The notes beneath the pieces were generated by a model. It did no database searches, had not been told where the DNA came from, and saw nothing but the letters and a program-made list of their open reading frames with translations. The translations under genes were made by a program, and so were the position numbers. DNA of 64,000 nucleotides from Grammothele lineata (lineage: Eukaryota; Basidiomycota; Agaricomycetes; Polyporales; Polyporaceae): NCBI GenBank assembly GCA_002150815.3, contig NDFF03000388.1, positions 364,221 to 428,220 on the forward strand, in the 5' to 3' direction. Shown here piece after piece: positions 11,535 through 64,000 of this stretch (the stretch's first letter is position 1; every line of letters begins with the position of its first letter).

Positions 11535-11822
11535 AGTGGGTGTCGTCGTCGTCGTCGACGGGAGAGGTGAGTGCGGCCCATCTTCGGCCGACCACTGCTC
11601 ATCCTCGTTGCAGACGCCGGTCCTTGCGGTCCGTCTGCCCGGACTTCGCCGCATACAATACGACCAACTTACAGGTGTGCAAGTGTGCACCGTCAAATAC
11701 TCACACAGACCCTCTTGGGTCGGTCGGTATACTGCAGGGATCCGGAGATAGCTATCCGTGAGAGACCACAATACACCTGAACTGACTCTACGCTACACAA
11801 AACCCTATCTCCCATACACACT

Positions 11823-13737: not shown

Positions 13738-14023
13738 TGGCAGCGCGGTGGTGAAATGGGCGAAGAGGCTGCTACTATGATCTGGAGTATCTGGCGTTCA
13801 GACGCAAGTCTTGGATTGTCCTGAGATCTGAGACACCGGCCCGGAGTCGGCGAGCGCCGGAGGTGGAGAGTAAGCGCCCGATTTCCCTGTTTGCAAAAAT
13901 TTGGAGCACGTGATGGAAAGGGGCGACTGAGTTTCTCTTCCCGCGCCTGGATACTCCAGCTCTCTCTTGCTCCTCGCCAATCTTTTGCCCCTCTCCCCAT
14001 ATTACCCCTCCTCCCGCACCACC
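13738..14023. promoter_or_regulatory. Shared bidirectional promoter region (REP and gar2-like genes)
   Basis: 286 bp separate the divergent start codons of the Rab escort protein and the nucleolar RRM protein. The stretch contains a CACGTG core (near 13905) and pyrimidine-rich runs just before the plus-strand start. The regulatory role is inferred from spacing alone. Confidence 0.45.
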
Positions 14024-16062: not shown

Positions 16063-16595
16063 GGAGGTTTGGTGCCCTCCACTGCTGTTGCTTCGACTCA
16101 TGTTGACCTCATGTCTTGTATGCTTTCGTCTCTTCCATGCTCCTTGCGACGTAGCTACCTGGTTTAGGACACCTGCTCTCTTCAATACTTCTCGAACCGT
16201 TTGTGCTTCTGGCTGTACCCGTATGCTCAGATTGCCTTGTGTAAAGGTCTACGAAAGACATCGTACGTGTATGTCGACGCCCACGAACCGAGATACATTC
16301 GTGCTTCTCTGGCCCCGTAGAAGTCAAACGATCCAACGTGTGAGCGAGGTCAGAACTGTGACAGCCAGTATCCAGGAAGCGCCCAGCACACACTGGCAAA
16401 TCGTGGGCGTCGTCTCCGAGCTGGGCCGGCCCGAGCACCTGACTCGGAGTCAACTCTCGGGGCGGTGGCTTTCATGAGCACGTTCACATACTATATTCGA
16501 GTCTTAACTTGCACCTTAACATGAACCAGAGACAAGGGTATCAGTGATTACCTCTGCAACACGTCAAAGCTACCCGTAACCCTCTGTCGGGCACC
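16063..16595. other. Intergenic region
   Basis: About 530 bp between two plus-strand genes; 3' UTR of the gar2-like gene and promoter of the antiporter. No gene, tRNA or repeat seen. Confidence 0.5.
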
Positions 16596-23299: not shown

Positions 23300-24161
23300 C
23301 TACGTTCCATTCGCCAACATCTGGCTTGATCCCACTCCGTCCTCCTCCATCTTCACACCCGTTTCATTCTCGGCTCCCCTCGGCAAATACGACGAGTCCA
23401 TCAGGTGCTCTCCCAGCTCTGGGAAGTTCTGCACCAGCGCTTCATTCAACGCCTTCCTGTATGCCTGTTGTCAGAATCCGTCAGCGTCCTGCCCCCCTGC
23501 GGCGAACGCAGTCACAGCGGTCGTATGACATCGTGAACGGCTCACATCGATAGCATGGATTTTCCCATTCATAAATTGGTTTTCTGTTGCTGCTCGCTCT
23601 AGTCGGTCTTTCGTGAGCGTCATTGGGTTCCGCGAGTTGTCGATGTCGACCAGCACCTGCATCGGCACCATGGTAGGGATCGTTTCCGACCTTTGCTCTA
23701 GCTCTCTCAGGCGGTGGATTACGTCATTACTGCTCGTATGTTCACGACATAAACGGGGCCGTGGTCAACAACAGGCCGAGGGTACATGTCGAGCCGAATG
23801 GCATGATCGACGTTCATGTGATAAATGACATTGAGAATGGTGCAGCAACCAAAGGGTTGGCACGTATGTGCGACAATACATGAGGTTTATCAAACGTGGA
23901 ACGGAAGCTGAGCAAAAAGACGTACACTCTCTGGCCGACGGGTTTCCCGGCAACACCTCCTGGCTTGTCCTTCTCCTTCGTCAGGTCATTCACAACCGTC
24001 GTGCCGAGGTTGTAAAGGGACGTGGCGAGGTCGAGCAGCTCCATTTCTAGGTCCCCTTGGGCTCCAGGCGGGGGAGGGGACTCAGACTCGCGAGGACTGT
24101 CCGGCGCATGTGGCGGGGGAGCGGGGACGGAAGTGGGAGTAGACATCAAGTTGCGCGCCAT
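23300..24161 (-). CDS. MED10: Mediator complex subunit 10 (Med10/Nut2)
   Basis: Middle-module subunit of Mediator, which links activators to RNA polymerase II. The ATG at 24161 gives MARNLMSTPTSVPAPPPHAP, a Pro/Ser-rich N-terminus, then LEMELLDLATSLYNLGTTVVND, the first conserved helix. Exons follow that cover the Med10 core, including VPMQVLVDIDNSRNPMTLTKDRLERAATENQFMNGK (positions about 23540-23670), the diagnostic D-(N/D)-x-R-N-P motif. A final exon encodes YRKALNEALVQNFPELGEHL and an acidic tail ending MLANGT with TAG at 23300-23302. At least four introns. Length about 210 residues, usual for basidiomycetes. Confidence 0.87.
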
Positions 24162-25306
24162 GTTGGGAAACGGGTGTATGAACAAAGCCGACAGGAGCGT
24201 GCGAAGAGGCGAGGCGAGAGTGAGACAAACAAGTGGACAAGACGAACAGCGCAGCGTCGTCCCCGAACGTTCGCATCTATCTGAGACGCCCGTTACAGAC
24301 GCCGTCCGGCTCGTACTCTTCTCGCGAACGCCTCCCCTCGATTCATTCTCATCTATCAAGTTGTTTTACTCATCGCGATGAATCGGTAACTACATTTTAT
24401 TCCCTCTAATTGCATGAGCTCATGCTTCTTCATAACAGAGGTCCAATCATTTTGGTAAATCAGGCATCTGTGTTACATCGAGCTGAACAACTGACTACTA
24501 TCCGGTTGGTCCAGACGATCGACGAGGCCGAGGTGTGCTCGCCCGACCACTTGTCCCATCATTCTCGTAACTAACCCATGGTACCTAGTACCTCCTGGAT
24601 CAGCTCGTTCGTGACACCGGTTGCAATAATGCTTTCCATCACACCTCACGAAGCTGATTCTAGCCACCCCCATCCTCTGATGATGACGATATGCTAGTGA
24701 AGCTGCGTAGAAGGCTACAGGACTTGTTGACTACCCTCCGTGCAGGCGCGGAGGGAACCGTATCTAGCTGAGCAATATGCGCATATATGTGAGTAGGGGA
24801 AGGGCGTCTGGGTTCGTCTCATTCACGTCTTGCTTCCACAGCGTTGGAACGTCGTGTGCAAAGCCACGCAGACAGATTTGCTAGATCGCTGGACAGTATT
24901 GCGACAATCGTCATTGACCTTGCATATGAATGGAATATCCACCTCCGGCAGGCTTTGTAGCATAGTAGAAATATTGTACTTTGCCGTGTGATCATTGATT
25001 TTTGACATAAACCTACCTATCACATACGACAATTCTCTGGGAATATTATGGTTGCGATTCTTATGGGATGTGGTAGGCTGCAGGTTTCTCTGAGCCCCAC
25101 TCAAGCGGCCCTCAGGCTCCCGCTCCGAGACCGAGGTGCTCTCGGGCCGGATGGAATGCCGGGCGTCAGAGACCCAGCTCCGGAACTTGAGCTCGATCTC
25201 CTCTGCAGTACATTCCCAACGAAGACGACGGTGAGTCCGCTTTCCACCGTGCCCTTATGCATCATCAGCCGACCATCTATGATTAAATAAGAAGTCTCTT
25301 ACGCCA
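24162..25306. other. Intergenic, divergent promoters
   Basis: 1.1 kb between the start of MED10 (minus) and the start of the thioesterase gene (plus). A minus-strand frame at 24473-24673 contains CNRCHERAD but only 66 codons with no neighbouring exons that fit, so no gene is claimed. No tRNA or repeat seen. Confidence 0.5.
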
Positions 25307-45861: not shown

Positions 45862-45877
45862 TTAAAAGGCTCTAACG

Positions 45878-46137
45878 ATGCAAATTTGAACCTGCGACGT
45901 CTAAAAATGAGACCAGGAGGTAATCCAACTGAGCTACAAGGGTGTTGGAAGGGTTGGAAGTGGTGGGGATGACATTAGCCCTATATACATGATTTTAAAC
46001 ATATTTTAATTGTTCTTGAACATATTCAAATGCAAAAGGGTGCGTTAGAAAGGTGTTTAATAGGGCTTTCAAACAAGCCCACACGTGCTGGGATTGAACC
46101 AGCAGTCATGAATGGGTGCCATGTGCTCTTCCTGCCT
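45878..46137 (-). repeat. Inverted repeat arm 1 (tRNA-like boxes on minus strand)
   Basis: Nearly exact reverse complement of 46288-46549; only about two differences were found by eye (CACGTG against CACATG, and CTCTT against CTCCT). Read on the minus strand, the arm begins near a T-arm-like GCTGG-TTCAATC-CCAGC and ends with TAGCTCAGTTGG (A-box-like) and GGTTCAAATT (B-box-like). Confidence 0.85.
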
Positions 46138-46287
46138 TTAATAGAGACACAACTATACTTGGGTCAAATCTGCTTCAATTAGTTAAAAATTGGGAATGCA
46201 GCTAGTAATAGTGTGTTATTATAAATCTGGATACTTACATTGAAATGTTCATGAGTTATTAGCCTCAAAATGCCTTCCTGCCTCCTA

Positions 46288-46549
46288 AGGCAGGAGGAGC
46301 ACATGGCACCCATTCATGACTGCTGGTTCAATCCCAGCACATGTGGGCTTGTTTGAAAGCCCTATTAAACACCTTTCTAACGCACCCTTTTGCATTTGAA
46401 TATGTTCAAGAACAATTAAAATATGTTTAAAATCATGTATATAGGGCTAATGTCATCCCCACCACTTCCAACCCTTCCAACACCCTTGTAGCTCAGTTGG
46501 ATTACCTCCTGGTCTCATTTTTAGACGTCGCAGGTTCAAATTTGCATCA
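46288..46549 (+). repeat. Inverted repeat arm 2 (tRNA-like boxes on plus strand)
   Basis: Partner of 45878-46137, separated by a 150-bp centre. It contains a perfect 5-bp T-arm with 7-nt loop (GCTGG TTCAATC CCAGC, about 46323-46339), and at its far end TAGCTCAGTTGG and GGTTCAAATT about 45 nt apart. The second set lacks a stable T stem and acceptor stem. Weaker inverted similarity continues outside the arms (AAAAGG...CCTTTT, about 45862 and 46563). It could be two tRNA-derived SINE copies head to head or a foldback element. Confidence 0.85.
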
Positions 46550-46563
46550 TTGGGCCCTTTTAT

Positions 46564-48390
46564 GCTCAAAACATCAAATAAGCGCCCAAATAGCGGCAGA
46601 GTGCGACAGTGTGACTGCCTAGTCACTAGTAACTGTCTGTCACAGGTGCAGAACAGAGGGGGTCAAAACAGAGTTGTGTGAATAACTCTGTCAGTTCTGC
46701 TTCAAATGACATCATCAGAGGCTCATTTATGAGTGTAGAATTACACACATTTGATGGCTGACTAAGCACCCAGATTAACATCCATCTTTGGGATGGATTG
46801 ATCAGAGAGAGTTTAGATGTAGCATATTAAAAGGAGGCTGTCAGATAAAGTTGCGATTTTATTTACCCCATAACTCTATCAGTTTTGGTCCAAATGACAT
46901 CATTCAAGTTGTGTCAGATGCATTAGAAGCAGGAATATCGAACTGTAAAAGGGAGCCCACGATTCTCTTATATATTCATCTTAAACAGGCGCTTTTTTGC
47001 GCTAAAGCACTTGCTTACTTTTACAGGCAGTGCTCCACGGCGTGTCTCTGCGCATCATTTTCTGCAGTATGACAATGCACCATGGAGCACCCCCAGCCAG
47101 AGTGCGCAGGCACCTTAGAGCCAAATAGCGACCAAATTGGCCCAAATTGTGCCCAGGAGAGCTGTTTTACTGTCAAAACTTGATTAAAATACGCATTTAT
47201 AAATATATTTGTATATCTCCTTCAAACGTGCATCAAATCACATGATCTCAAAAGTGCCTGATAGGGGAGGTCTCTCATTCCAGAGAATTTCCAAATTGGG
47301 ACTTTTTGACCATTTAACCGTTTGATTAGACGCCCGCAGATCGTTTGACCGTTGGGCCGGCATGTGCATAGCTTGGCCACACTGCGTGCCGCTGTGGGCG
47401 CATACTGCCTCTTGTTGCGCTCACTGTGCACACCTGCTTACATGGCTGTAGCCATGCTCGTGCGTCTTACGAGCTGCATCTTTGCGCCATTGCTCCTTTG
47501 ATTGTAGATCCCCTAGAATAGCATCGTGCATATGTAACTTGGTGGGAGAGGGCCATGGCTGGCAAGCACGATCTATAAGGAACAGAAGTTATGATGTATA
47601 GCATATTGTATTGACTCTCAATATTACTTACCTAGAACTATTAAGAACCCTCATCAAGCAGGGCTTTACTCTAGATTATGTATTTAGCTGTTTATGAGCT
47701 TACTAAAGTGCCCTTGCCCTACATCATTACTTACTATACTGGCCTGCCCCTTCACTGTTGTCTCTTGCACACAAATTCAGCCTATTGCATTCACTTTATG
47801 TATAGTTTGCTGCTAATAAATGTCAAATACATAGCATGCCATTGCATAGTGCATATTAGATGGCAGCTACTTTATAGAGCACATAGCATACCCACCCCTG
47901 CATGGAGCAGTAAATTACTCATATTCTAACCTCTCAATTGATTGCATAGTGCCTTAGCTTCTATACAACATCAACTGCTTCACTAACAGATGTGTTCAAC
48001 TTGTTGCTTTCATTGCATATTATATAAACCATATTAGGAATTACAATGTACACTGTTGCATTTTCCTCATCTGTAGCTTTCCAGTAATATATAGGATGTC
48101 CCACTTTGCTTGAGTGGTTGCAGACATACAGCCTGATTGATTTGAGGATCTGAGTCTAGCTAAGTTTGAAAAAAAGCGCCTAAAAAGCGCAAAAACAGCC
48201 ATCTTGAGAGCTCAGATGTTAATATTTCAACCAAATCTTAACCAAATTACATGATTCAAGTTGTGTTGGTAAGCTAAATGCTGTGCGATCCCATGCCCAT
48301 TTTAAACGCCCGATTAGCATCAAAATTGTGTCATTTATAGGCTGGATGGCTCTAGATGGACTTAGATGTACTTGTCTAGCACTTGGTACC
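46564..48390. other. Gene-free region with dispersed diverged repeats
   Basis: AT-rich, no open frame above about 95 codons that looks coding. It carries copies of a motif close to ATGACATGATTCAAGTTGTGT, at about 46894-46917 and 48248-48268, with weaker copies near 46706 and 47240; further copies occur at 48588 and 48773. Confidence 0.6.
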
Positions 48391-48505
48391 GCTTTTTTGG
48401 GCACTTTTTGGGACCCCAAATTGGGTAAGTGATCTCCCTGCTTAAGCTTTATGTGGGGAGATCACTTACCCGATTTGGGGTCCCAAAAAGCGCCCACAAA
48501 AGCGC
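48391..48505. repeat. Short inverted repeat (hairpin), about 50-bp arms
   Basis: Arm 48391-48438 contains GGGACCCCAAATTGGGTAAG and TGATCTCCC; arm 48455-48505 is its reverse complement with few mismatches (GGGAGATCACTTACCCGATT and GGGGTCCC). The loop is about 16 nt. It looks like a MITE remnant or a structured transcript end. Confidence 0.85.
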
Positions 48506-49531: not shown

Positions 49532-51640
49532 ATGCACTTAGATTACTTCATGAATCCTAAGGTGCCACTTGGGTGGCCACAACGCTTCCAGATCTCCGTG
49601 CTGCATGGGATGTTCAACTACCAGCACCTGATAAGCCCAACTAGCACCAACCGGAGTCATCTAGAATCTATAGGCCACCATGCAGGGTTTTCTCGACCTT
49701 TCATTCCTGTACCCCCTCGTGCACAAGATCGCATCTACAGCCCTCCAAATCTTCCTCCCCCTCCTGCTCAATCTGAGTTCCCTCACTACCCCGAGAACGA
49801 GGTAAGGAGAGGACTCGAGTCCAGCTACATGCCTGGCGTTTTTCCAGCACAACACGCTTTTATGGACTCTGCACCCCAGCCGAACTGGTGGGACAATGAT
49901 ACATTTTCAGAGGTTTCGAAGATTCGAGATTCACCGTCAAGAGGTCCCCTTGGTCAATGTCATCGATTATCTGCGTCAGGACCTTTACTCCAATCTCCCT
50001 TTGTGCAAACAGCTCCTGATCCCAGCATAAAGGAGGCTCTTTCTGCAAACTGTCTCAAAGGACTGTCCGACTTCGATAGACGTTCGAAGGTGTCGGACAG
50101 AGCGCAAGAGTTCTTCAACTTCTTAAAACGAAAAGAATCACGGTGTGCCTCCAGATGCAGACACTGTGTTCGCGCTTTGGGAGGTGTGGCGGACAGAGCT
50201 CATGGCCATTCTCGATCGTGCAGTTCCTCCAGAAGCATTACCCCCTCCAATTGTGCCGATGGTGCCCTCCATCCGCAGATCAGTGCACACTGAACCAACC
50301 TGTAGAGTCACCATCCCACATGAAGACAATGGTGGCTCTGATTTTGTCCCAAACTTTCTGAGCGACACACCACCACTCTCTCCTTTGCCACCTCAGAAGA
50401 TCACTTCAAGGAAAGCCAGAGAGGGCCTATCTGATGACAATGACAGTGATGACAAAGGCGACTTAGATTTCAACAGCGACCCAATAAATTATCACTTTGA
50501 GCAAATATGGACGACTGTCATAGATATCTGATCATTAGCGGTGACGAATCCTTCAAAGAGGAGTCCGACCTCGCCCAAATCTATCAAAAGCTCTTCCCGA
50601 ACCAGGTTGCTCCCTTGCTGCTAGAAAGACGGCTGAGGCTTCTTTACGAGATTGTCCAGCTGTTGTTGGAGGTGACTCAGGAGATACTTGACCCGATGCG
50701 TAATGTGATTAAGGAATGCCAGGTTGATCCACTTCTTAGAGACACCCTCCATCAAACCTGCATGGAGTTGTACAAGTTCCAGATGATTCGCTCAAACTTG
50801 CTTGCGGAGAGGGAGACTCATTGTGGTCTTGAGCAGGGATACTTTCAGTGGTTGACAGCCATGAACTCTGTCCTGGAGTGGCAGACCAGCAGCAATGTCG
50901 TAACAGCAAACCAGGTGACGAAGGCCTTAAATGCCTCCAAAGAGGACAGAGATGTCATTGTCAAGATCTTCGAGAAGGAATATGAGAAGATACTTGGAAG
51001 GGCGCTAGGAGGGGAGGATGATCAGTCCGGAGCCATTTGGCTAAACGCATTGCGAAACCTTTTCCAACCAGTCCAGCAGCCAGGAGTTGAGCTCGATGAA
51101 CACAATGCTGGAGGGACTGCCAAATGTTCAGCCAACACCACCTAGCCAACACTATCGGAGGGATCATCCCAGGCAGCCCAGTTTTCGCAACCACCGACTG
51201 AAACCGGAGACTGTCCGTACCTTACCATCAACTGGATTGTAGACACGACTCAGCGACTAGACATATTGCAGGCAAAAGCAGACGTTGGGACAAGTACTTC
51301 CTCCCCATCACCGCACATGAAAACGCTGCTACCAAGTGTTAGCCATCAAGAAATGGTAAGTTCATTTTGTTATAATTGATGGATTGTACTAAAATGTACC
51401 TATCTTTGAACATCTCAAATTCTTAGGTTGGAGGAGTGCATCTCAGCACTAGAGACCAACATTCAACCCCTAGCACCACCTCCAAGAAAACCGCCGACTA
51501 GAGATGAGGTCTTGGGTTGGCTGAGCATAGCCGCAATAAATGTGTCACGTCTTCCTGTGGCTTTCTGTAAGTATTTCTGCTATCCTAACATTACTACAGT
51601 ACACTGTGTGAAAGCGAGAACCTCTTAGGGGCTTGCTGGA
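49532..51640 (+). pseudogene. Frame-broken coding relic of unknown family
   Basis: Several overlapping open stretches on one strand read as protein-like but in different frames. They are about 49532-50140 (MHLDYFMNPKVPLGWPQRF, FFNFLKRKE; within it another frame reads VIDYLRQDLYSNLPLCKQ); 50145-50531 (PPDADTVFALWEVWRTEL, then an acidic DDNDSDDKGDLDF patch); 50507-51145 (a helical, Leu/Glu-rich segment of about 210 codons); 51250-51360 (WDKYFLPITAHENAATKC); and, after a canonical GTAAGT...CTTAG intron, LEECISALETNIQPL. Frames can be joined only with frameshifts or unusually short introns. I recognise no domain. Its place between repeats and a copia element suggests a transposon-borne or decayed gene. 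Confidence 0.42.
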
Positions 51641-51724
51641 GCACAGGAAACACAAGTACTGGACTCTGTGTTGAGCAGCTGAACTCATACATGCAGAACT
51701 GTACTGTAACTCACCTGGACTCTG

Positions 51725-52085
51725 TGTTGAGCAGCTAAGGAACGCAGCAACACCAGAGTCTGGTGTAAGCGTCCAACAGACAAAACAACAACAAATATGA
51801 AGTAAAGGAAAGCTGAGAAAAAGCATAGAGTATAGTAAGCGAAGATAAAGGAGTGTGGTGCAGTGGTTAACTGCACCAGCTATCTAAGCGTGTAGGAGCG
51901 CAAGGTGACGCGCTGTGGGTTCGAATCCCACGGGGTACGTAAAGTGAAGCACGCCCTACCTGCGGAATAAATCTGGGAAAAATCGGAGAATATTCTGAGG
52001 GCGAAAGTGAAGTAAGTTCTATCTTTTAGAAAGGAGAATAAACATGAACTGAAACTGAAAGAGCGTGAATTCACCAACTTCAACA
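51725..52085 (-). repeat. Ty1/copia 3' LTR, 361 bp
   Basis: Bounded by TGTTGA at 51725 and TCAACA at 52085, a perfect 6-bp inverted terminal repeat with TG...CA ends. The copia pol end lies on its internal side, and a polypurine tract (GGGGGGAGTG on the minus strand, 52084-52094) touches its edge. A 20-nt sequence at its outer end (GGACTCTGTGTTGAGCAGCT) also occurs 57 bp further out at 51661. Encloses a tRNA-like sequence. Confidence 0.78.
51849..51939 (+). other. Class II tRNA-like sequence inside copia LTR
   Basis: Contains an A-box TGGTGCAGTGG (51856), a 6-bp D stem (GTGCAG/CTGCAC), a long variable-arm stem AGCGC/GCGCT and a perfect T arm GTGGG-TTCGAAT-CCCAC (51915-51931) with a full B box. 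The segment expected to form the 5' acceptor strand does not pair with GGGGTAC at the 3' side, and the anticodon stem is weak. I therefore call it tRNA-like, not a functional tRNA gene. The long variable arm points to a Ser/Leu-type ancestor. Confidence 0.6.
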
Positions 52086-52136
52086 CTCCCCCCTGAATGC
52101 ACGTCTCTCCAACTCCCCCCTAAACGCACAATGCGT

Positions 52137-52527
52137 CTATTCCAAGCCCATCATCCGGCGGAACAGCTCAACCTTTGCTCGAGGCAATGCCTTGGTGAGC
52201 AAACCAGCAGGCATCTCATCTGTGCGCAAATGCACAGGAGAGATTTTGCCAGCCTCAACTGCATCGCGCAACCAATAGAAGCGCAAATCCAGGTGCTTCA
52301 TCCAACTGTGGTGCTCTGGGTTCTTAGCCACAGAAAGCGCAGATCGGTTATCAACATAGAGCGTGGAAGGAGCGTCGACAGGAGTGCTCATCGCAGAGAG
52401 AATGTTGCGCATCCAGAAGATCTCCTTACCAGCTTCAACAGCCGCCACATATTTAGCTTCCGTGGTAGAAAGCGTCACAATGGGCTGCTGTTTACTGCTC
52501 CAGCTAACAGCACCGAATCCAACGCGC
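52137..52527 (-). pseudogene. Ty1/copia polyprotein 3' end (RNase H), cut by gypsy insertion
   Basis: Reads RVGFGAVSWSSKQQPIVTLS then TTEAKYVAAVEAGKEIFWMR, YVDNRSALSVAKNPEHHSWM, KHLDLRFYWLRD and LRTDEMPAGLLTKALPRAKV, ending MMGLE with TAG at 52137. These are the standard C-terminal RNase H motifs of copia pol. The frame is intact but its 5' part is replaced at 52527/52528 by the LTR of the gypsy element, so the remainder should lie beyond the right edge of the window. Confidence 0.88.
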
Positions 52528-53286
52528 TGAGGTGGTCACACCTATCCAATCAACCCAAACTGACTGAGAGGACTAGCGAAGACCTATAACACCCAAAAGA
52601 ATATAGTAGGGTGTAAGGGGAGGGAGAGTCAGCCTCAGGTTCCCTGCGTGTCGGAGGATAGGGGAAGGGTGGAAGTGAGCTCTGCGTAGAGGGAGGAAGT
52701 TTCCGCGGAGGGAGCGGGGATTCGTAATAGGGGTCTCGTAATGGGGCTCGTGGACGGAGAAGCTCTGATATATATAAAACTCGCTGGCACGTAGAAAGGA
52801 AGGGGGAGTGTGGGGGAGGTTCGATGGGGACGGAGCAACACAAGAAATGACGTGGCAATGTGGCCGTGAAGAGACCTCAACAGGCAAAAAGCTATTGCTC
52901 GCAAGAAGGAAACACTTCGGGGCAAATGGAATAAAACGCACTGGCTCCGAATGAGTATCGCTGTTATGCGGGGGAACAAAATGCAAATGAGGTTCGAGCT
53001 TCTGAGTCGCGCGTTGTGGAGAAGTATGTGGTGGTGTATTCTGGAGTCCCGTGGAGAGAGCCTCTGTGAGTTACAACTCTACGTGCGCTTATCTAAGCAG
53101 CACAAACACCAAACAACACAACCAAAATATGCCAAACACCGCTCTCCGATAAGCCCCATCAAACTCCTGACTGATGGTCCTTTCCGCGGAGAGACCACAC
53201 GCCGTCCCGCAGAGAGTGGGCTGTGACTTCCGCGTAGAACCACGGAGAACGTTCCGACTGACCGTCGTCCGCGAAGATTCTCGTCA
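52528..53286 (-). repeat. Gypsy 3' LTR, 759 bp
   Basis: Starts TGAGGTGG at 52528 and ends CTCGTCA at 53286 (TG...CA). Its first 218 bp match 63783-64000 with three differences. The inner edge abuts the polypurine tract. An AT-rich ATATATAAAA at about 52766-52777 could serve as a TATA element on either strand. Confidence 0.82.
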
Positions 53287-53323
53287 CCTCCCCCCAACTG
53301 AAATACTGGCCGCCCTCGGTCAG
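53287..53323 (-). repeat. Polypurine tract next to 3' LTR, duplicate of pol end
   Basis: On the minus strand it reads ATTTCAGTTGGGGGGAGG directly before the LTR, the place and composition of a plus-strand primer. The 37 nt match the pol 3' end at 57671-57707 at 33 positions, the last 18 exactly. In the pol frame it would read LTEGGQYFSWGE. Confidence 0.75.
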
Positions 53324-53367
53324 CACCTCTTCCCTTCCCTCACCATCACTCCCTCAGCCGCCCTACG

Positions 53368-54017
53368 ATGGATCCTACGCTCTACCTGCATCATAACGAG
53401 CTCCGCAAGAAGTGGTGGTTCCTACTCGATATCAACATCAACCGCGCAATGGGGGACCTGTCCACCGAGATCGAGGCCGGTACTGGGGACGCCGCGGAGA
53501 TCTTGAAGAGGGTCGATGACCTTGCTCGGGCGCTGGTAGGCACCACTTCTGTCGTCCATCTTATCGAAGAGTTGATAGCCCGCGTAGCGCGATAAAATCG
53601 ACGCTCAAGGGTCCACACAAGGCATGGAGATCCAGTTGCAGCAGGCAATGGAGTTGGTGGATTCCTACGGGAATGTGGTCATGTCGCAAGACTTCGCTAC
53701 TAGATGGTCCGGCGTCCGCGCAGAGACTCTAGTTGTCCATCGTCGCGCAGAGTTGGTTCAACTCCGGGCCGCAGCTGCTTCGATCCGGAGCAATCTCCTG
53801 CGTCATCACATGGGCAGGGAATCCTCGTCCGGGGGAGCAAGCGCAACTCGACCTCCTCATTGCCGAAGTGGATGGGGAAGTCTCGTGGCTTGTGAAGGAG
53901 GTGTATGTGTTATCGGAGATCAGCACGCGCGCGAACACGCGGCGAGGGAATCAGTTGCCTGAGTTGCGACTTGCCGATGTGGGAGAATTGTTCGCAGAGG
54001 AGGCTGGAGACGTCTGA
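53368..54017 (+). CDS. Antisense accessory gene 1 of the gypsy element, unknown function
   Basis: Not recognised. ATG 53368 opens MDPTLYLHHNELRKKWWFLL with a helical segment to VVHLIEELIAR. A 57-nt intron (GTAGCG...ATCCAG) would join in phase to LQQAMELVDSYGNVVMSQDF, RWSGVRAETLVVHRRAEL and IRSNLL. A last change of frame is needed to reach QLDLLIAEVDGEVSWLVKEV and ELFAEEAGDV (stop at 54017). A 40-nt GTCATC...GCAAG intron fits the phase, but a 1-nt indel is as likely. About 190 residues if spliced. It runs opposite to gag-pol, with its start only 82 bp from the LTR. Confidence 0.5.
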
Positions 54018-54169
54018 AAAGGAAGGGGGCTGTGCGGAACGTGGTAGGCTAGCGCACGTCGTCAGAAGAGGAGTACGGAACACGACGATGCAGATGATAT
54101 GATAGAGGGTCTCCGCGAATATAACTAGAGTGCTTCGCGAGGTTCGCGAAGCACCACCCGCTTGCAGAA

Positions 54170-54817
54170 ATGCCTGCGTTGACGATCCCTGACCTGCTTG
54201 ACGCTGCGTACCCGTTCCTCCTGGATGCGATGGAGACACACTTTCTACACCTGGTGCCCCTCTCGTCCCATAGGCAGCTGGGTGGTGAGCTGATCCCCGC
54301 GTACCTCGCCTGTGAAGACGCCTGCGTCGACCTAGTCGTGAGCACTTTCCTAGCCTCGCTGCGCAGTGGTCTGACGACCTCTTCGGTGTAGGGCGTGATT
54401 GTCCTCCACAATGGCCATTCTTCCGCGCTAGCGCGAAGCCTTCGCCATTTGCATCGCCTTCACAAAGACCTTCGACGACGGTTCTTGGAACGCGTTACCC
54501 ACGTCCGTGACCTCGCGGAGACCGCTCACAAAGAGTGGCCGAATAGCCGCGTCGAGACATGTAGTTGGCTTCGCCTTGCGCGCGGCGGAACTGCGCGCGT
54601 AGGGGCTCCGCTGCTGCTTGTCACTGCAGAGCTTGACACCCTGGAGGTGTCCACTAGGCGGGGCCTAGCTCTGCACGTCGCGCGTGAGGCCTTACCGCCG
54701 CTTCTGCCGCGAGCGGACGACGATTCCGATGGTTCGCTACCCGATCTGGTCACACCGGAGTCTTCGAGCGAAGAAGGGGAGGAGGGCGTTGTCCTGGAGG
54801 AGAATGACGTCGACTAG
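54170..54817 (+). CDS. Antisense accessory gene 2, interrupted by one in-frame TAG
   Basis: Not recognised. ATG 54170 gives MPALTIPDLLDAAYPFLLDAME...LTTSSV, then TAG at 54389-54391, after which the same frame stays open for 142 codons (VIVLHNGHSS, LRHLHRLHKDLRRRFLERVT, AETAHKEWPNSRVE) to an acidic end SSSEEGEEGVVLEENDVD at 54817. Continuous frame and similar composition on both sides suggest one 215-residue protein with a nonsense change; two separate short proteins are also possible. The first part is Leu-rich and helical by pattern. Confidence 0.45.
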
Positions 54818-55044
54818 GGGAGAATCAGCCCTGTGGTATAGAGAATGATACGGTGTGCTTCTTCTCCTTTCTTGTGCGTCTCCTCGTTTTCGCGGGGCAC
54901 GAGAGGCGCCGAGCAGGCGTGCGCGCGAAGCTGGCATAAGGTTTGAACTTTGCCGTCCCCTGGGTCTCTTTCACATAAGGCCGCGCGTCGTTCGAAGGAG
55001 CCCCACGTTCTTCCCCTCTTCGTCTACCACTCACTGCTGCAGCT

Positions 55045-57374
55045 ATGTCCACGTCCACTCCTGCGCTTCCGCTCCCCCAAGACATAGATTCCTTTCTGAC
55101 CTGGGTGACGGGGCGCAAAGTGCGTGACCTACGTCGCGTCGACGAGGTCGCATGGTGCTCTCTTGCGGTCAAGCTCTGTACTCAAGCTAACGATGTACGC
55201 TCCACCTCTCCGTACTTTTCTGATTCGTGTTGATGCTATATCGATCTAAGACCTGCCCGCGTTTGGCTATGGGCTCATGCGTCAGGCCGCGCAGACGACG
55301 CGCCTCGCTATGGAGACCAGCACAATGCCCGAGTACGTCAAGCGCAGTGTCCCCTTGCTGCTCGAGCGGTTCTGCACCATGCGCAAGAATGGGCAACATG
55401 AGAGTAGCGACGACGAGTTGCGCCTGTGGATGGATGTCTTCGGTCCGACGTTTGGTACGATTCCCGCCTCCTCCGATGGTGTTGCAGACCGTTGCGATGC
55501 GCTCTACGCCGTCGAGCAGCTCTGCGCGAACGACGCGGCCGCTGTGCAGGTGTCGGAGGCTCCGGGGATTACGCTCGCCCCGCCGACGCCGATCGTCACC
55601 TCCGCGCAGGCCGCCCCTGCTCCTGCTGGGGGCTCTCCTCCCTCTGAGTCGCCACCACCCACGTTACCGAGCAAGGGGAAGGGGAAGCAGAAAGCCGTCG
55701 CCCTGGTCGACTCCTCCTCGGAAGAGGACACCGCGAGCTCTGAGATTGAGGTCCTGTCGGCCACCGCCATCGCGAAGCTGAAGGAAAAGAAGTCGGCCAT
55801 CTCGCTGACCGTCGATGACGTTGTCCAGATGAAGCATGATCCTCCGCCACTGGATATCCTGTACGCGTGCGACTGGTGTTTCACCCGCAGCCATGCTTGT
55901 CCTGGTTACGGGTTCCCTGGTTCCACCTCTGTGAACTGTATGGAGTGTGCAGCTGCACATCGCACTTGCCGTTTCCGCAACCTCCACGCCGATGGGGTGA
56001 TATGTGGTACGCGTCCCGCTCCTGCGATTCATGTCATGTGTTGCTGACGGGGTGGAGGCAGTAGAGAATAAGGATCAGGCCATCTACGATCCCGAGGACG
56101 GGTGGTTCATTCGCGTTGGGATCAGCCCCTCCGCGCGAGAGATTGTCGAGGGAATGATCAACTTCTTCACCTCTACTGTGCGTCCTGGCGAGGTGCTCCG
56201 CTGGCGCGGTACTGGTGATCAGCAGCCGAGGCCACCGAACCGGCAGAACTTCGAACCCTTCAAGTTCACTTTGGACCGTTCCGTAACAATGTTCGCGTTC
56301 ATCGGCTGGGTCGCGAGTACGCAGAACACTTCAAAGAAGGAGTTCGCATTGGAGAAAGAGGAGGTGACAAGGATTCTCGATCCCAAAGGCTAGCCATCGT
56401 TGGCTATGCGTCACCCTGATGAGGCGGGCAAGCCGCGGCCGTGCCGGCTTGCTGGGCGCGAGACCACACTGGGGGAGTTGTTTACAGCCCTCCAAAACGC
56501 AGAGTCGCGTGGAGAACGCCCGCCGCACGGGATCCCCTGGCCTGCGGAATGTCGGGCTGTCGTCAGCGTGCCCAAACCGCGTAAGCCAGGCAAGGTCACT
56601 GCTCGTCCCGTGAAACGCGAGCGCAGCTCGCCTACGCTCGATTCCACCACCGGGCAAGGAGATGACGATTATCCCGACGCTGCGACTGCAACGCCAGCCC
56701 CCCCGACCGGTACTCGCGTAACGCGGAACTCAAAGCGCAAGGCTGCCGCGAAGATGTCGCCACCTCCGGGAAAACTCCCCGCTCCCGTGGTTGCGGTTCC
56801 ACCCAAGCGTAAGCGGACCAGCTCAGATATGCAGGTGCGCTCGTCTTCGTCCGTTGTGGGTTTCTTGGGCCAACCGCAAGGTTCGTACCAGGCTGCGCGG
56901 ACGTATGGCCGTGGTTCGTGCAGCTCCGTCACGGTCGTTCCTCTCTTCCCCAGCCTCTCCGAGCCCACCGGGCGTGCGGGTTCATCGAGTTCGTCTGCTG
57001 TGCCAGACCTCGGGTCCTTCCGTGGGTCGCCCTCCGTCGCATCGTTCGCCAGCCCGCCCCTCACCGGTCTCCCCGGCGTCCGACTCAACGTTCGTGATGA
57101 GTTTTCAAACTTCTTCCGGACGTTGCAGGCTGTCCAGTCTTCCGCCGGCATGATCAAGTACTACGTGCACCAGGAGGAGACTGCGGAGCCGGGTACGGCT
57201 CGTGCCTTCGGTGAACCCCTTGGCAACCCGATCCTGGACACCGTGCCGGTCAATAGCCCTGCGTGGACGCTCCCTGAGCTCCGGGCGGTCGTGCGCTCTG
57301 TCGTGCAAGCGATCGCGGAGGTAGTGGATGGGGCTTTGCCAGTGGAAGGTGAGGATGTCGATATGGTTGAGTAG
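55045..57374 (+). CDS. Antisense accessory gene 3: Zn2Cys6-like cluster protein, with one in-frame TAG
   Basis: ATG 55045 gives MSTSTPALPLPQDIDSFLTW and VRDLRRVDEVAWCSLAVKL. A 91-nt intron (55195-55285) joins TQAND to AAQTTRLAME. A Pro/Ser linker and an acidic Ser stretch follow. Then comes a cluster at 55868-55969 with spacing C-x2-C-x6-C-x12-C-x2-C-x6-C, the fungal binuclear zinc pattern. A second intron (GTACGC, branch GCTGAC, GGCAG; about 56008-56061) leads to VENKDQAIYDPEDGWFIRVG and, to 56390, ILDPKG. TAG at 56391-56393 then interrupts the frame, which stays open to 57374 with basic patches (RVTRNSKRKAAAK, PPKRKRTSS). About 735 residues if the TAG is an acquired stop. It may bind nucleic acid. 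Opposite strand to gag-pol. Confidence 0.55.
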
Positions 57375-57665
57375 GCCTGCTTGCCCTTCGCGTCTTCGTC
57401 GCCCGCGTGCCTGTGCGCTGTGTAATGTTAGCCTGGTATCTGTGTCTGAGACTGTATCGCGTCCGTTGTAGACCATGAGATCGTGTAAGATAGCTCTGTA
57501 TGTAGTGAATGAATGTGGTCTTGCTTCGCATTGACTGGAGCGGCAAATGATGATTATGTGCTTGCGCAAAAGAAGGTGTAGTCATTGGGTTCAAAAGGAT
57601 CGCGTAACCCAGTCAGAGTAAGAGAGAGGAAAGATATATATTGAAGCGAACATAAATAAAGAAGC
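57375..57665. other. Spacer between converging accessory gene 3 and pol
   Basis: 291 bp holding the 3' end of the antisense block and the 3' flank of pol, with AT-rich ATATATATTG and AATAAA-like bases near 57635-57660. Expected to hold poly(A) signals for the plus-strand genes. No gene seen. Confidence 0.5.
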
Positions 57666-60600
57666 CTACTCCTCCCCCCAACTGAAATCCTGACCGTCCG
57701 CGGTCAGTATGAAAGATCGCCGGAATAGGAAGCTATAGTACGCAAGGGAAGAGGAAGTGATAGAGTCCGAGGGTGCATCATCGGTGAGTTCTAAAGCAAG
57801 TGAAGGTTCCTCGTCGTCGCCATTATCATCGTGCTCAATGAGCTCAGAGACGCGCTCCACTGGAATATCGAGGTCTTCATCGCGGAACGGCAATGGGGTG
57901 ACGCGTCGGGGAAAATACGGGATGACGCGATAAGCTGCAACTGGCCTGTCGAAGACTGCGCCATCAAGCTCCGCAAGGATGTACGCGCCTCCGCGGTTGC
58001 GTGCGATGACGAGCAACGGACCCAGGTAGCGGGGGCGTGTCTTCCGGTCCAAGTACTTCTTGATGGCTGTGTTACGCATGAGAACCAGTGTGCCGCGATG
58101 GAAGTCGTACCCGTGTATTTGATTCAGATGATGTTCTTCGAAGATGCGGGCATGCTCCAGGCGTTCTTCGTATATGGAGTCCCGCAGGTCGTGGATGAAG
58201 GCGGCACGGGCTGTGAGGGCATGCGCGCGGCGTGCAATGAGATCGCTAGTAGAGAGTAACGCTGTCAGCGGCGGCGAGAGATAGGTGGCTTCTACAAGGT
58301 CGAAGGGTAGGATTGGATGAGAACCAGTGATCGCGAAGTATGGAGAGCACCCCATGCGCTTGCGGATGGTGACGCGGTCGGCCCAGAACACTGCGTAGAC
58401 GCGAGAGAGCCACTTGCTTGCATCTCCTTCGCACGACTTGATCAGTGCCTCCCGGATGTGGAAGTGCGGACCCTCTACAATGCCATTTGCACGTGAGTTA
58501 TACCCGGAGATGCGTATGTGCGTGATGTGGTATGTCTTCGCGACATACTCGAGCGCGGCCACCCACGCGGAGCTGTTATCAGACACGATCTCGCTCAGCG
58601 CGCCCCAGCGACAAAGGAACTCTTGATAAATCCAGTCCCCAATTGTCTTCGCGGTCTCGGTCTGGACTGCGCGGCCTTCTCCCCAGGATGTACACGCGCA
58701 GCGGCCATGCAGAATGTGCCAACCGTTGGGCATGACCATAGAGTCTACATGTACACGTGCCATGGGCGACGAAGGGAGGGGGACAGTGGGCGGGACAAGA
58801 ATGCGAGTTGTTTGGTGAATTTGGCACTTGTGGCAAGTCTTCACATACCACGCGACGTCACGGTGAATATCTGGCCACCAGAAGCGATCACATATAAAGG
58901 CCCGCGTGGCGAAGAGGCCGCGGTGACCGATATAGTTGTGGAACTCGACGAGTGCACGTGGCCGGATGTGCTGGTCAAGAACATGTTTATGCTGCCCGTC
59001 CTCACTCCTCTTCCAGAGCTGGTCAAGGTCATCCAAGAAGAACTGGGCCGCGAACTTCATGAAGGCAACGTAGGCCCGATCTGTCAGTCCGTCCGGGCGG
59101 GAGAGCGGTTCGCGCAACCACGCGCGCACCAGTACAAGCCGTTCATCTGCCTCGATCGCCTGAGGGAACCGTGGAAAGGTGGTATACGTGGGAAGAGATA
59201 TCTGCGAGAGCTTCGCCGCGGTACCGTTCATCTGCTTGAAGAAGACCGATACAAGCGGACCTGCCGTGGGGACTCCAAGCATCATCGGTGTGTCGCTTAC
59301 GTCGCAGATTGTAAAGGGAGGGTTGAGCATGTGAACAAAGCCCTGGACCTTGTCAACCCAATCACTAAACTCCTCCATCTCGGTTCCACGGTCGCCGTCC
59401 TCTGGCTGCGCGTGCCGACGAGAGAGGCCATCCGGGGAGTGGGAGGTTCCTGGGACATGAACTAGCTCGAAGTGGAAGAGGAGGATCAACATTATCCACC
59501 TGTTGATTGATGCGCTGGGCATGATGTCAGGGTTCGCGAGCATTCCATGTATGTAGCTCGCATTTGTCTCGACAATGAGACGCTGGATGCCAATCAGATA
59601 GAGCCTCAGCGCTGCCAAGGCTCGGTATAAGCCGTATAGCTCGAGCTTCGGTTGGGAGAAACGCGACTCGCGCGCATTGAGGGTGATGGAGCCGAAGCGA
59701 CTATAGTAACGCCACGGAGGGGAAGTACCATGTTCCTGGCAGAGGTGGAAGCCAATAGCGATGATGGAAGTATCAACTGCTAGAATGACGGGTGCGTCAG
59801 ATTCGTAGTCGATGGGACGGAGAGCGGGAGAGTCCAGTAAGGCCTGTTTCAGGTCTGCCATCGCGGCTTCCTGGTTGGGGCCGAACTCGAATGGTACGTC
59901 CTTCCGCGTGAGCTTGAGCAAGTGGTGCGCGTGTTTCGCAGAATTCTTGATGAAGATACGCGCGACACTGATGGTCCCCAGGAAAGTGCGCACTTCGGAG
60001 AGGTCGCGACACCCAACCCAGTTCATGACCGCCTCCACACGATCGCTGCCAGGCGTGCGCCCCTCGCGCGTACACCAATGCCCTATGACCGCGAGCTCGA
60101 TGTCGATCGGGTGAAACTTCCCTGGCTTCGCGGAGAATGTCCCACCGCAATACTTCATGCACGTGACGATGCGGTTCAGGCCGCCAAAGTGCTCCCATAT
60201 GTATCGACGAATGCCCGGGTTTGCAGGAATCACTTCATAGGAACCGTCGGGACGCTGATAAGTGTCCTTTGGGCCCTTCACGGGGACATCGTCAATGTAG
60301 GGAACTGTGAGGTGGGGAATCTCCGGCTGCAGAATGAATGTAACGTCCTCGTAGAAGATGGGGACAGAATTCGACCAGCCCATGGGGAGCTTGACGAGCC
60401 GGTATGCTCCAAAGGGGGTCTGGAATGTTGTAACGTCGCGAGAGCTCTCTGCGATCTCCCGCTGGTCGTAACCAACATAAAGGTCAAGCGCTCCGAGACA
60501 TGCGCGACCCGCGAATTGCTCAGCGAGCTGGTCGGTGATGGGTGGAACACCAGAGTGCTGGATGGTGACTGCATTGAGAGGCTCTAGGCTATGCACGAGC

Positions 60601-61484
60601 CGTAGGCTTGTTCCATCCTTCTTCAACACGCAGAACCAGCGCGAACGGTAAGAGGAGTTGGAGGGCTCGTAGACACCCGTGTCGATCTTCTGCTTGATGA
60701 TCTCGCAGACTTGCTTATACAACCCAGGCGGAATGGGGATATTCTTAAGCACCCATGGCGTATGAGGGATGATCGGGATGTCGATAGGGGGAAAGAAGTC
60801 AGGACGCAAGCAGCCACGTTCGGAGTTGTCCCACGCAAACGCTAAGTTGTGTTTGCACATGAAGTCGTCGAGGAGATCCAGCTCCGCGGGGGTGAGAATG
60901 TGTTGATGGTCCCGTCGCACGCGATCGCGGCGCTCCTGCGTGTACCGACCGGTGGGAATGAATGGAGGGGGATTGGGATCTAAGGTGGGCATAGTGTCTA
61001 AGGGATCGCCGATGATGTGCCGCTGGATGCGGAACCTGGAAGGGAGATCAGCCACAACAGGCCTGACCTTCTTCGCGACGGGCTTGTGTTTCTTCGTTTG
61101 TTTGGGTTTTGGCTCCTTCGTGAACGTATAGGCTTCTGCGGGGCGCTGCTCTATGGGATAAATACACGTACGAGACAGAGACGAGGGACGAGACGAGATA
61201 GGAGACGTAGAAGAGACACATTCTTGGGCGTTGACGTGGGTTTTTGGCTTTTCAGGAACGGCAGAGAAGAAGGTGGAAACTTCAGGAGTATCGCAGGCTG
61301 ATAGATATAGAGATGTGAGAAAAGGATACGAGGACTGCTCCAGGATCGCGAACGCAGAAAACGAGGAGGCGGGGGTATCACCGTCGACTTTTAGAAGAAC
61401 CGCGACCTCGTCCGCGTCCACCGGGAGGTCCTCGAAATTCAAAAACCCGAAGCAGGACCAGTGGTGGGACGGAGACCCGGCCAA
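57666..61484 (-). CDS. Ty3/gypsy pol: reverse transcriptase, RNase H, integrase
   Basis: A single open frame of 1,272 codons from ATG 61484. [14 protein letters not shown] (about 246), [11 protein letters not shown] (331), [15 protein letters not shown] (358) and the catalytic YIDD at 396-399. RNase H: AVDTS (Asp571), QPKLELYG (Glu615), then VETNASYI where residue 641 is Asn in place of the Asp expected, and PDGLSRR (Asp685). Integrase: zinc site His849, His854, Cys884, Cys887; core Asp914, Asp969, Glu1004 with the D-D-35-E spacing. A GPY/F-like [17 protein letters not shown] module follows. The protein ends GQDFSWGEE, whose codons form a polypurine tract. It overlaps the protease frame by 46 nt in the -1 frame. 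Long and undamaged, so recently active. Confidence 0.9.
57671..57707 (-). repeat. Pol-end copy of the polypurine tract (internal)
   Basis: Encodes the last residues of pol ([12 protein letters not shown]) and matches 53287-53323 at 33 of 37 positions. It marks the right-hand boundary of the antisense block. Confidence 0.75.
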
Positions 61485-62278
61485 CCCTCTCCACGGTCGT
61501 ATGTCGGGACAACGGCAACCTTCTTCGTGTTCGGGCAGCGGATAGTGAGGCGATGGCCGCTGGGCCCGCTTGTCTCAACAATGGTGCTCGCAAGTTTATC
61601 GAAGGGCCTACCAAGGAGAACGTCGTACGCGGTGTCGCGCATCACGTGCATCTGGAGGTAGAGGACGATGTCACTAGTGGGGATAACAAAGGGCACGTTG
61701 ACCGTGACTCCGAGGGAGCCGTTAATCGACCCGTTCACGGACTCCATCCTCAGGACCTTATCGGGATTGTACGAGAGCCCTAACTTCTTGCAAAGCTGCT
61801 CACTGATCGAGACAATCATGCTCCCTGGATCGAGTATGCACTCGATGGGGGCAGTGGAGTCATTAATGTGCGCCCACACTGTCCGGAGGTTCGATAGCGG
61901 GGGAGCGACCACGATGGGGACCCCTTGTGCATTGGGTGTGGTGGGGGACTTGCTTGCCACCACGAACGTGGACGCATCCCCCTGCCCGTCCACGGCGTCC
62001 GCATACTCCTCCTCATCATCCTCGGAGACCTCCTCGATGTATGTGGTTGTGACGCGGGGCGTCGACTCCGACCTCATGCGCGCGATCATGTCGTCCACCA
62101 CCTGGGCGTCATTGGACTTCGGATCACAGAACGCTACACGTCGTATTGCGGTCCCATCATGAACGTGCTTCGCGAACTCAGGGGCGATGCTGAGGAGTTC
62201 TCCGGTCGTAAGCGTGATCTCCTTGTTCAGAAAGCGCTCCTCCACCCGATCAACCGCTTTCGCGTCGTGGAACTTCAT
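61439..62278 (-). CDS. Ty3/gypsy aspartic protease frame
   Basis: Frame of 279 codons from ATG 62278 ([20 protein letters not shown]). After an acidic linker the retropepsin-like core reads [20 protein letters not shown], with D-P-G-S where retroviral-type proteases have D-(S/T)-G, followed by [20 protein letters not shown] and [15 protein letters not shown], the second conserved Gly-Arg-Pro-Phe block. The start codon overlaps the gag stop as ATGA. The stop at 61439 lies 46 nt inside pol. Each junction is a shift to the -1 frame, so the three products could come from frameshifting or reinitiation. Confidence 0.82.
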
Positions 62279-63666
62279 TGTGGACTTCGTCTGGAAGGCT
62301 GACCGGCCCGCATTACGGACCGGAATTGCAGGGGCTTTCTGCGTGACGTCAACCGGTACAGCCTAGGCGGTCCTCGTGGAGCGAACTGCTGCAGTTGATG
62401 CGCGAAACCGGGAGGTGGCTGCTGAGGCATCACGGCGGGTATAGCCTGCTGTAGGCCGGCGACCATCGCATTTGCCTGGTCCATGCGCACTTGAGAGAGC
62501 ATTGATGAGAGCTGGGCGAAGCATGAATCTAATTCTTCGCACTTGATGTATCCATCCAGAACCGGAGGGGCGACCGTCGGGGCCATGGCGGGCGACGCGA
62601 CCGCCGATGCTACGATGGGCTGTACGACTCCGAGCGGACCTGCACCTATAACCTCCGCGGTACGGTGGCGAAGAGCGTAGATCGCGGCAGCGTTGATCTC
62701 CGCGACAGTTGGGGCATCAGGATTGAACTGGGGGTCCGCGACGAGGCGCATCTGAATCGTTCGCGCGATGTCGCCAGAGAAGGACTGTAGGAGAAGCCGG
62801 GCTCCTTCCGCTTGGGACATGGCAGTCGTTGACTGGCTAAGGTAGGTGATGATCACATTGAACCGTCGGTAGAAGGCCTGGTACTCTGCGAGCGATTGGA
62901 AGCCGACTCCCGGGGCACGCTGGCCTTTGTACTCAGCCATGATCGCGCGAAGGTCCTCTACCTTCCACTGGTGCTCAAGGCCTTTGTAACCGTATTGAGC
63001 GGTCACGTCATCACAGAAGTCCTCGTACGTCTTCGTTACATCAGAGAAGCTCGCCAGACCCTTCCAAATGTACTCCGTGGAGCCCGGAGAGTAGTAGACT
63101 GCGTGCTTCTTGCATTCCGTGTCATCGGAGAGATTTGCGCGACTGAAGAGGGCCTCAAGATCCTGGAAGAACCGGAGGACCGTGGCAACGTTTTCGGGAT
63201 CGAAGAATGGGTAGGTACGGCCACCGCGGAGGGGCATCTGCACGTGAGGACCCCAGACAGGCATCCTGACTCTAGGGGCTGGACGTTGATGCGGAGGGGC
63301 AGAAGGACGCAAGTGTGATATGGGAGCGGGGGAAGGGCGCGGGGGGGATAACTCACGTTCACGAATAGCACGAATGAGGTGATCAAGAAGCTCGTCTTGT
63401 TGGGATTGAGGTAGGCCGGAGTCACGAACAAGGGCGCGTGCAGTGCGCTCGTCTTGTAGCCCGTTGGGATCAGAGATGTCCGCGGAGTCGGTAGATTGTG
63501 ACTGCAGGGAGCTTGGCGGGGTGGCGAGCGGGGTAAGGGATCCTGTGAAGGGGCTCGATGTGGTGTCTCGCGGAGAGCTGTTTTGTGGGGAGTGGAAAAA
63601 GGAGGAGTCTGGGTTGTCGCCGAAGTGTTGATGAATCGCGTCGAGAAGCTTGTCACGGCTTCGCAT
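62275..63666 (-). CDS. Ty3/gypsy gag (capsid) protein
   Basis: 463 codons from ATG 63666 (MRSRDKLLDAIHQHFGDNPD). A Pro/Ser-rich start is followed by the capsid-like core: RTYPFFDPENVATVLRFFQD LEALF (a gypsy gag hallmark), KKHAVYYSPGSTEYIWKGLAS, YEDFCDDVTAQY, SLAEYQAFYRRFNVIITYL and ARLLLQSFSGDIARTIQMRL. The C-terminus is Gln/Pro-rich and ends in a basic stretch. No CCHC zinc knuckle is present before the stop, which many related gags have at this place. The stop TGA at 62275-62277 overlaps the protease start. Confidence 0.85.
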   Translation of the reverse strand: MRSRDKLLDAIHQHFGDNPDSSFFHSPQNSSPRDTTSSPFTGSLTPLATPPSSLQSQSTDSADISDPNGLQDERTARALVRDSGLPQSQQDELLDHLIRAIRERELSPPRPSPAPISHLRPSAPPHQRPAPRVRMPVWGPHVQMPLRGGRTYPFFDPENVATVLRFFQDLEALFSRANLSDDTECKKHAVYYSPGSTEYIWKGLASFSDVTKTYEDFCDDVTAQYGYKGLEHQWKVEDLRAIMAEYKGQRAPGVGFQSLAEYQAFYRRFNVIITYLSQSTTAMSQAEGARLLLQSFSGDIARTIQMRLVADPQFNPDAPTVAEINAAAIYALRHRTAEVIGAGPLGVVQPIVASAVASPAMAPTVAPPVLDGYIKCEELDSCFAQLSSMLSQVRMDQANAMVAGLQQAIPAVMPQQPPPGFAHQLQQFAPRGPPRLYRLTSRRKPLQFRSVMRAGQPSRRSPQ

Positions 63667-63760
63667 AGCTCGGGTATTCGTGGTGGGAAATGGATGGGGA
63701 GAAATGGAGTGGAGAGTGGATAGGGGCGACAGCAGGAGTTGGCCTTTGAGGATTAAAACC
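63667..63760 (-). other. Gypsy leader between PBS and gag
   Basis: Untranslated leader of 94 bp; nothing else seen in it. Confidence 0.6.
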
Positions 63761-63778
63761 CCCTCGCGGTGGGCTCCA
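63761..63778 (-). promoter_or_regulatory. Primer-binding site of the gypsy element
   Basis: On the minus strand, four bases after the LTR end (...CCACCTCA), the sequence TGGAGCCCACCGCGAGGG begins with TGG, complementary to a tRNA 3' CCA end. The matching tRNA was not identified. Confidence 0.7.
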
Positions 63779-63782
63779 CTAA

Positions 63783-64000
63783 TGAGGTGGTCTCACCTAT
63801 CCAATCAACCCAAACTGACTGAGAGGACTAGCGAAGACCTATAACACCCAAAAGAATATGGTAGGGTGTAGGGGGAGGGAGAGTCAGCCTCAGGTTCCCT
63901 GCGTGTCGGAGGATAGGGGAAGGGTGGAAGTGAGCTCTGCGTAGAGGGAGGAAGTTTCCGCGGAGGGAGCGGGGATTCGTAATAGGGGTCTCGTAATGGG
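63783..64000 (-). repeat. Gypsy 5' LTR, partial at window edge
   Basis: Begins TGAGGTGG at 63783 and matches 52528-52745. Differences seen: GGTCTCACC against GGTCACACC, ATATGGTAGG against ATATAGTAGG, and GTGTAGGGG against GTGTAAGGG. The rest lies outside the window. Confidence 0.88.

Follow-up and report, generated by a model that had tools for sequence, protein, structure and literature searches.

Results

The stretch analyzed here, called the window throughout, comprises 64,000 nucleotides of the fungus Grammothele lineata (contig NDFF03000388.1, positions 364,221 to 428,220; our locus G000:C238:364221-428220) and lies at the extreme end of its contig. Its last part (52528-64000) is occupied by a Ty3/gypsy element on the minus strand which, between pol and the 3' long terminal repeat (LTR), holds a block of three genes on the plus strand. 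The 3' LTR (52528-53286, minus strand) measures 759 bp and reads TG...CA on the element strand; its full length was set by a solitary LTR on contig C75, which matches it over positions 1-759 at 92%. The contig ends at window position 64000 inside the 5' LTR, of which the inner 218 bases (63783-64000, minus strand) are present and the remainder of about 759 bases lies past the contig end. These 218 bases differ from the corresponding part of the 3' LTR (52528-52745) at three positions. The core of the primer binding site (PBS) is a 15-mer at 63762-63776. A gag frame (62275-63792, with a possible ATG at 63666), a protease frame (61439-62362) and pol (57666-61574), an open frame of 1302 amino acids for reverse transcriptase (RT), RNase H and integrase, are, like the PBS, on the minus strand. 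The PBS 15-mer has seven sites in the genome, compared to three for its reversed control. RNase H, the integrase zinc domain and one aspartyl protease model scored above the Pfam cut-off, and RVT_1 fell below its own. A Pfam scan of gag yielded no match; this frame was assigned by its position and by its counterpart in a relative on contig C71. With an LTR pair, PBS, gag, protease and RT-RNase H ahead of integrase, the element is a Ty3/gypsy LTR retrotransposon.

The block spans 4,347 bases between two copies of a short sequence module described below. Gene A (53368-54017, plus strand) starts with an ATG 82 bp from the 3' LTR and has a clear first exon, whose donor at 53536 is common to the C71 relative; its acceptor has no assigned position. 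Relative to the C71 reading, the frame of the window copy shifts near 53801-53830. Gene B (54170-54817, plus strand) reads without frame interruption over two exons (197 amino acids), which are separated by a 54-bp GT-AG intron in phase 0 (54338-54391) with a GTGAGC start, an internal CTGAC and a TAG end. Gene C (55045-57374, plus strand) contains an intron in phase 1 (56007-56061) and, in the window copy, an in-frame stop at 56391-56393. Just ahead of this intron it encodes a zinc-cluster-like motif, C-x2-C-x6-C-x12-C-x2-C-x6-C (55868-55969, plus strand). Between 53324 and 57710 the plus strand contains a single AATAAA, at 57655, which lies downstream of gene C. All intron phases were read from coordinates.

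The motif of gene C agrees in cysteine spacing alone with the spacing that we take to be typical of fungal Zn2Cys6 regulators. A sub-threshold match to the Mcm10 zinc-motif model (E = 0.065) is located before the cysteines. A sequence search of solved structures (PDB) with the zinc stretch returned three matches, none of them convincing; the best one, with a whole-sequence E value of 0.0038, is to a designed protein and adds up hits to six weak repeats, with no stretch passing by itself.

Among the 36 of 106 candidates that were scored following an own-genome pol search with 63 matches, the C71 element is the closest relative, its pol matching in two pieces at 76% and 74%. The C71 pol is split by a nested insertion of about 6.7 kb (about 11659-18385). 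The LTRs of this element (4893-5755 and 24010-24872) agree at 859 of 863 bases, with four differences, and, read by eye, ACGT flanks it on both sides as a 4-bp target duplication, which makes it an insertion independent of the window element. We searched 41 of 47 loci with the block frames by tblastn, the other six belonging to the window element itself, and obtained matches from C71 alone (L005, L044). Gene set, order, orientation and place of the C71 block are all as in the window element. In a tblastx comparison the two blocks match with an E value of 3e-45 in the plus frames and of 2e-21 in the mirror frames of the opposite strand, while the reversed C71 block reaches 4e-4 at best.

At the level of single genes, exon 1 of gene A is 38% identical to C71 over 63 amino acids, and the middle part of the gene scores better than all of 1000 shuffles. 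Gene B is identical at 85 of 180 residues (47%) and gene C at 140 of 479 (29%), with 32% for the end of gene C in a separate comparison. The corresponding values for the retroelement proteins are 247/456 for gag (54%), 220/313 for protease and 786/1043 for pol (75%), so that in this comparison the block is the fastest-evolving part of the element. At the DNA level the two blocks barely align (38 bases at best), whereas pol aligns at 72%. Nevertheless, the introns of genes B and C given above occur in C71 at the same position and in the same phase, and the C71 gene C carries a zinc-cluster-like motif with identical cysteine spacing. Directly ahead of this motif C71 has one additional intron (GTAAGT...CTAAT...TAG).

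The sequence-only reading of this stretch had placed the gypsy parts on the minus strand and three plus-strand genes at 53368-57374 inside the LTRs, which the LTRs, PBS, frames, Pfam matches and tblastx confirm. It had further proposed that the antisense genes travel with the element, to be checked in other copies. Within this genome such a copy exists: the block lies at the same place in the diverged, independently inserted C71 element, and no solitary block was found at the sensitivity of the searches.

Both ends of the block are marked by a module composed of a palindrome and a polypurine tract. Module 2 (53287-53325, minus strand) adjoins the 3' LTR and module 1 (57671-57709, minus strand) lies at the pol end, so that a direct repeat of 37 bases (89%) brackets the block. 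Each module consists of the palindrome TGACCG-N4-CGGTCA, with one mismatch in module 2, followed by TTCAGTTGGGGGGAGG. C71 likewise has two modules, at both block ends, and all four modules of the block bearers have the same polypurine core, CAGTTGGGGGGAG. The pattern GGACNGTCN{1,8}TCAGTNGGG has four matches in 41.8 Mb, all within the elements described here, and its reversed control has none; window module 2 is missed by the pattern owing to its altered right arm. CCG-N4-CGG occurs in four of five modules; on its own it shows no enrichment within the element, with 7 occurrences against 6.6 in mononucleotide shuffles. The window pol frame reads through module 1. That the module is mere pol coding sequence was rejected, as the pol stop precedes it by about 130 nucleotides in C71 (19096-19098) and by 315 nucleotides in a third element, on contig C62.

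For the palindrome, statistics were calculated from five module sequences of three elements. Here, 32 of 35 cells pair, the palindrome ranks above its six slid versions, and neither the covariation score nor the share of paired cells was reached by any of 500 shuffles. Three pairs have changed on both sides (reached by 21/500 shuffles); the cells with two-sided changes and the pair types were reached by 2/500 and 90/500, respectively. RNA folding of the five modules gave z-scores of -1.79, -0.48, -0.33, 0.51 and -2.53, and the hairpin is part of the best fold in four of them. This symmetry fits a hairpin, in RNA or in DNA, and a DNA site bound by a dimer equally well. In C71, module 1 is followed by seven bases resembling the start of the LTR, a likeness too weak to be put to any use.

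The C62 element is complete, with a pol 55% identical to that of the window, a repeat pair (6504-7520 and 14756-15772) identical across 1,017 bases, and ACGT on both sides as read by eye. At its 3' end the pol stop is followed by the 315 nucleotides, a single module and the LTR; the block is absent. In an RT-RNase H tree of 13 rows the window and C71 elements group together with C62 as their sister, each with a support of 100/100. The antisense block is present in both of the members found of the window/C71 clade and absent from the one sister. A palindrome of about 930 bases (90%) lies near this element (C62:3230-4144).

More distant relatives, further out than C62, are found on C230, C191, C70, C185 and C133; they run into contig ends or lack LTR pairs, so that no 3' end is assigned to them. 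On two of these contigs an open frame follows pol on the sense strand (C185:6401-7084 and C230:19508-19954). The two frames are weakly alike (score 58, the best of 300 shuffles being 50) and are perhaps another extra gene in the clade. The solitary LTR on C75 is flanked by ACGG on each side (by eye), and neither pol nor block was found beside it. An LTR match on C50 (81%, 118 bases) has no pol or block match within 10 kb on each side; another, on C36, amounts to 73% over 129 bases.

Own-genome searches with genes A, B and C gave one or two matches each, on C238 and C71 only. Protein searches of the genome with pieces of A and C returned only the pieces themselves and missed homologues that direct tblastn detects, hence the lack of a copy elsewhere in the genome holds only at that sensitivity. 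Among public sequences, a 110-amino-acid protein encoded on an ENA contig of 625 bases agrees with gene B in 100 of 109 residues (92%). Given that A, B and C were found in the two elements only, and that this match to gene B exists elsewhere, the block looks like neither a fresh capture of host genes from its own genome nor a free element. A protein search with pol gave 1,074 relatives at E <= 1e-50, in a database that does not hold their genomic context. Nothing useful was obtained from plasmids, from IMG/VR (gene C, pol and gene B), from GTDB genomes (pol), from a protein database with exon 2 of gene C, or from Rfam. A bacterial promoter scan of the window was set aside as inapplicable to a fungus.

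One flank of the window element is visible, the other one lying past the contig end. The element interrupts another retroelement frame (52137-52535, minus strand), whose other half is beyond the contig and which, judging by a TEAKYVA-type motif, reads like a copia RNase H; the frame has no Pfam match. Elsewhere in the window, an inverted repeat with 276-base arms (45863-46138 and 46287-46562, 97.8%) and a 148-base spacer may be read as a fold-back element or a young palindrome, and the stretch 48390-48504 is self-complementary at 88%.

Discussion

We consider it likely that the window and C71 elements belong to a Ty3/gypsy lineage in which three antisense genes with introns reside as a block between pol and the 3' LTR, rather than recording a one-off insertion, because the block sits at the same place in two diverged elements and the module is doubled in the bearers while single in C62. 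The cargo-bearing lineage proposed by the sequence-only reading thus holds for the window/C71 clade and not for the wider pol clade, in which the sister lacks the block. The splicing it proposed finds support at the level of sequence, in the introns of B and C common to C71.

The block would have entered before the window and C71 elements split, or would have been lost in C62, its entry being accompanied by duplication of the module. Module 1 could be a well-kept scar of this arrival or could still be used, for example as a second plus-strand start, the scar being more likely. Because the block genes face the opposite way, the sense genomic RNA would carry their introns unspliced, and the introns would survive reverse transcription. 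The block would be transcribed separately in antisense direction, probably from a start in or beside the 3' LTR, and its products would be fast-evolving accessory proteins. Gene C likely encodes a nuclear, nucleic-acid-binding regulator, to judge from its zinc-cluster-like motif together with its basic and acidic stretches, and we infer a regulatory role for the block.

Several observations weigh against a resident, functional block. Only two block-bearing elements are known in the genome, and with C62 as the single sister, gain and loss of the block are indistinguishable. The last part of gene A compares with C71 no better than shuffles (234 of 1000 as good), and the first introns of genes A and C are not fully placed. 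With the broken frame of gene A and the stop in gene C, the window copy may no longer make these two proteins. The block frames scanned against Pfam (exon 1 of gene A not among them) show no match at or above the cut-off, the Pfam zinc-cluster model does not match gene C even at E values up to 10, and a structure model of gene B is of low confidence, with a mean predicted local distance difference test (pLDDT) score of 42.7.

Part of this could be accounted for by passenger DNA: a mobile element in its own right, or a cluster of host genes, would have landed at the pol end in one event or in two. In favor of such a passenger, genes A and C of the window copy are broken, and block protein identities of 29-47%, compared to 75% for pol, are what little-constrained DNA might show. 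Yet the two diverged elements carry the block at the same place between the same flanking modules, with common intron positions and conserved cysteine spacing, and gene B has a protein counterpart of 92% identity elsewhere. Moreover, the outer 60 nucleotides of the block contain no exact terminal inverted repeat of at least 6 bases, no inverted repeat of at least 40 was found within 50000-64000, and no copy was detected outside the elements at the search sensitivity used. We therefore regard a passenger as unlikely.

It is likewise rather improbable that the antisense transcript matters instead of the proteins, by pairing with the genomic RNA and feeding small-RNA silencing, or by self-limiting the copy number. 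Such a role has been proposed for plant antisense open reading frames (PMC7264820), and the low copy number, with two bearers found, would agree with it. However, the blocks are similar at the protein level and hardly at the DNA level, which speaks for coding selection, and their introns are in matching phase. An assembly chimera, suggested by the contig end inside the 5' LTR, is scarcely credible given that C71 shows the same order within one contig and ACGT on each side.

Returning to the resident block, its elements might even form a self-regulating cassette, in which module 1 would serve as a second plus-strand start similar to a central polypurine tract, the block would be its own plus-strand segment, and the zinc-cluster-like protein of gene C would bind the palindromes at both ends and thereby control the element. 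We hold this to be a long shot; if true, an LTR element would have brought together an accessory regulator and its binding or priming sites. For plants, both PMC7264820 and PMC11963269 regard the origin of antisense genes located between pol and the 3' LTR as unknown. Two bearers and a blockless sister in one genome, with a doubled module framing the block, possibly preserve a record of the way in which elements acquire such blocks.

Comparison with known systems

Antisense genes near the 3' LTR also occur in retroviruses, as with HBZ of human T-cell leukemia virus type 1 (HTLV-1). HBZ and the block are both antisense near the 3' LTR, a likeness by layout only, and the window genes are three in number and lie outside the LTR. 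PMC7264820 notes that HTLV has an antisense promoter within its 3' LTR.

Among plant elements, Grande, RIRE2, Retand and PvRetro13 have antisense open reading frames between pol and the 3' LTR (PMC7264820). Regions between pol and the 3' LTR of Retand measure 2.9-6.6 kb, with TRP28 in 97% of clusters (PMC11963269), and the encoded plant proteins have been proposed to be DNA-binding regulators (PMC11963269, PMC7264820). Retand, Grande and RIRE2 thus share with the window element the antisense coding region (aORF-3R) at this position. If the term aORF-3R requires that such a region recur in at least two copies of one family, the predicted genes of the window and C71 elements would qualify. The plant elements differ in their hosts from the window and C71 elements, which are fungal and possess the doubled module. 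In place of the TRP28 of Retand the window block has no Pfam domain and a zinc-cluster-like motif; TRP28 (PF04195), sought in the scanned block frames, gave no match.

The sequence-only reading knew of no fungal family with such a layout. This is not borne out, as the Boty element, found in both Botrytis and Sclerotinia, carries an antisense gene between pol and the 3' LTR (PMC7264820), named brtn (PMC8365987). Boty (BcGypsy1) of Botrytis cinerea is thus, like the window element, a fungal LTR element with antisense coding capacity at this site; its published description, on which we base the comparison rather than on the brtn protein sequence, names one extra gene, compared to three here. A three-gene block, the zinc-cluster-like motif and a doubled module were not found in print in our literature search. 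The layout itself is already known from plants and Boty, whereas the combination of three genes, zinc-cluster-like motif and doubled module appears to be new and extends the fungal cases that we found in print, with their single antisense gene, to a block of three genes with predicted splicing.

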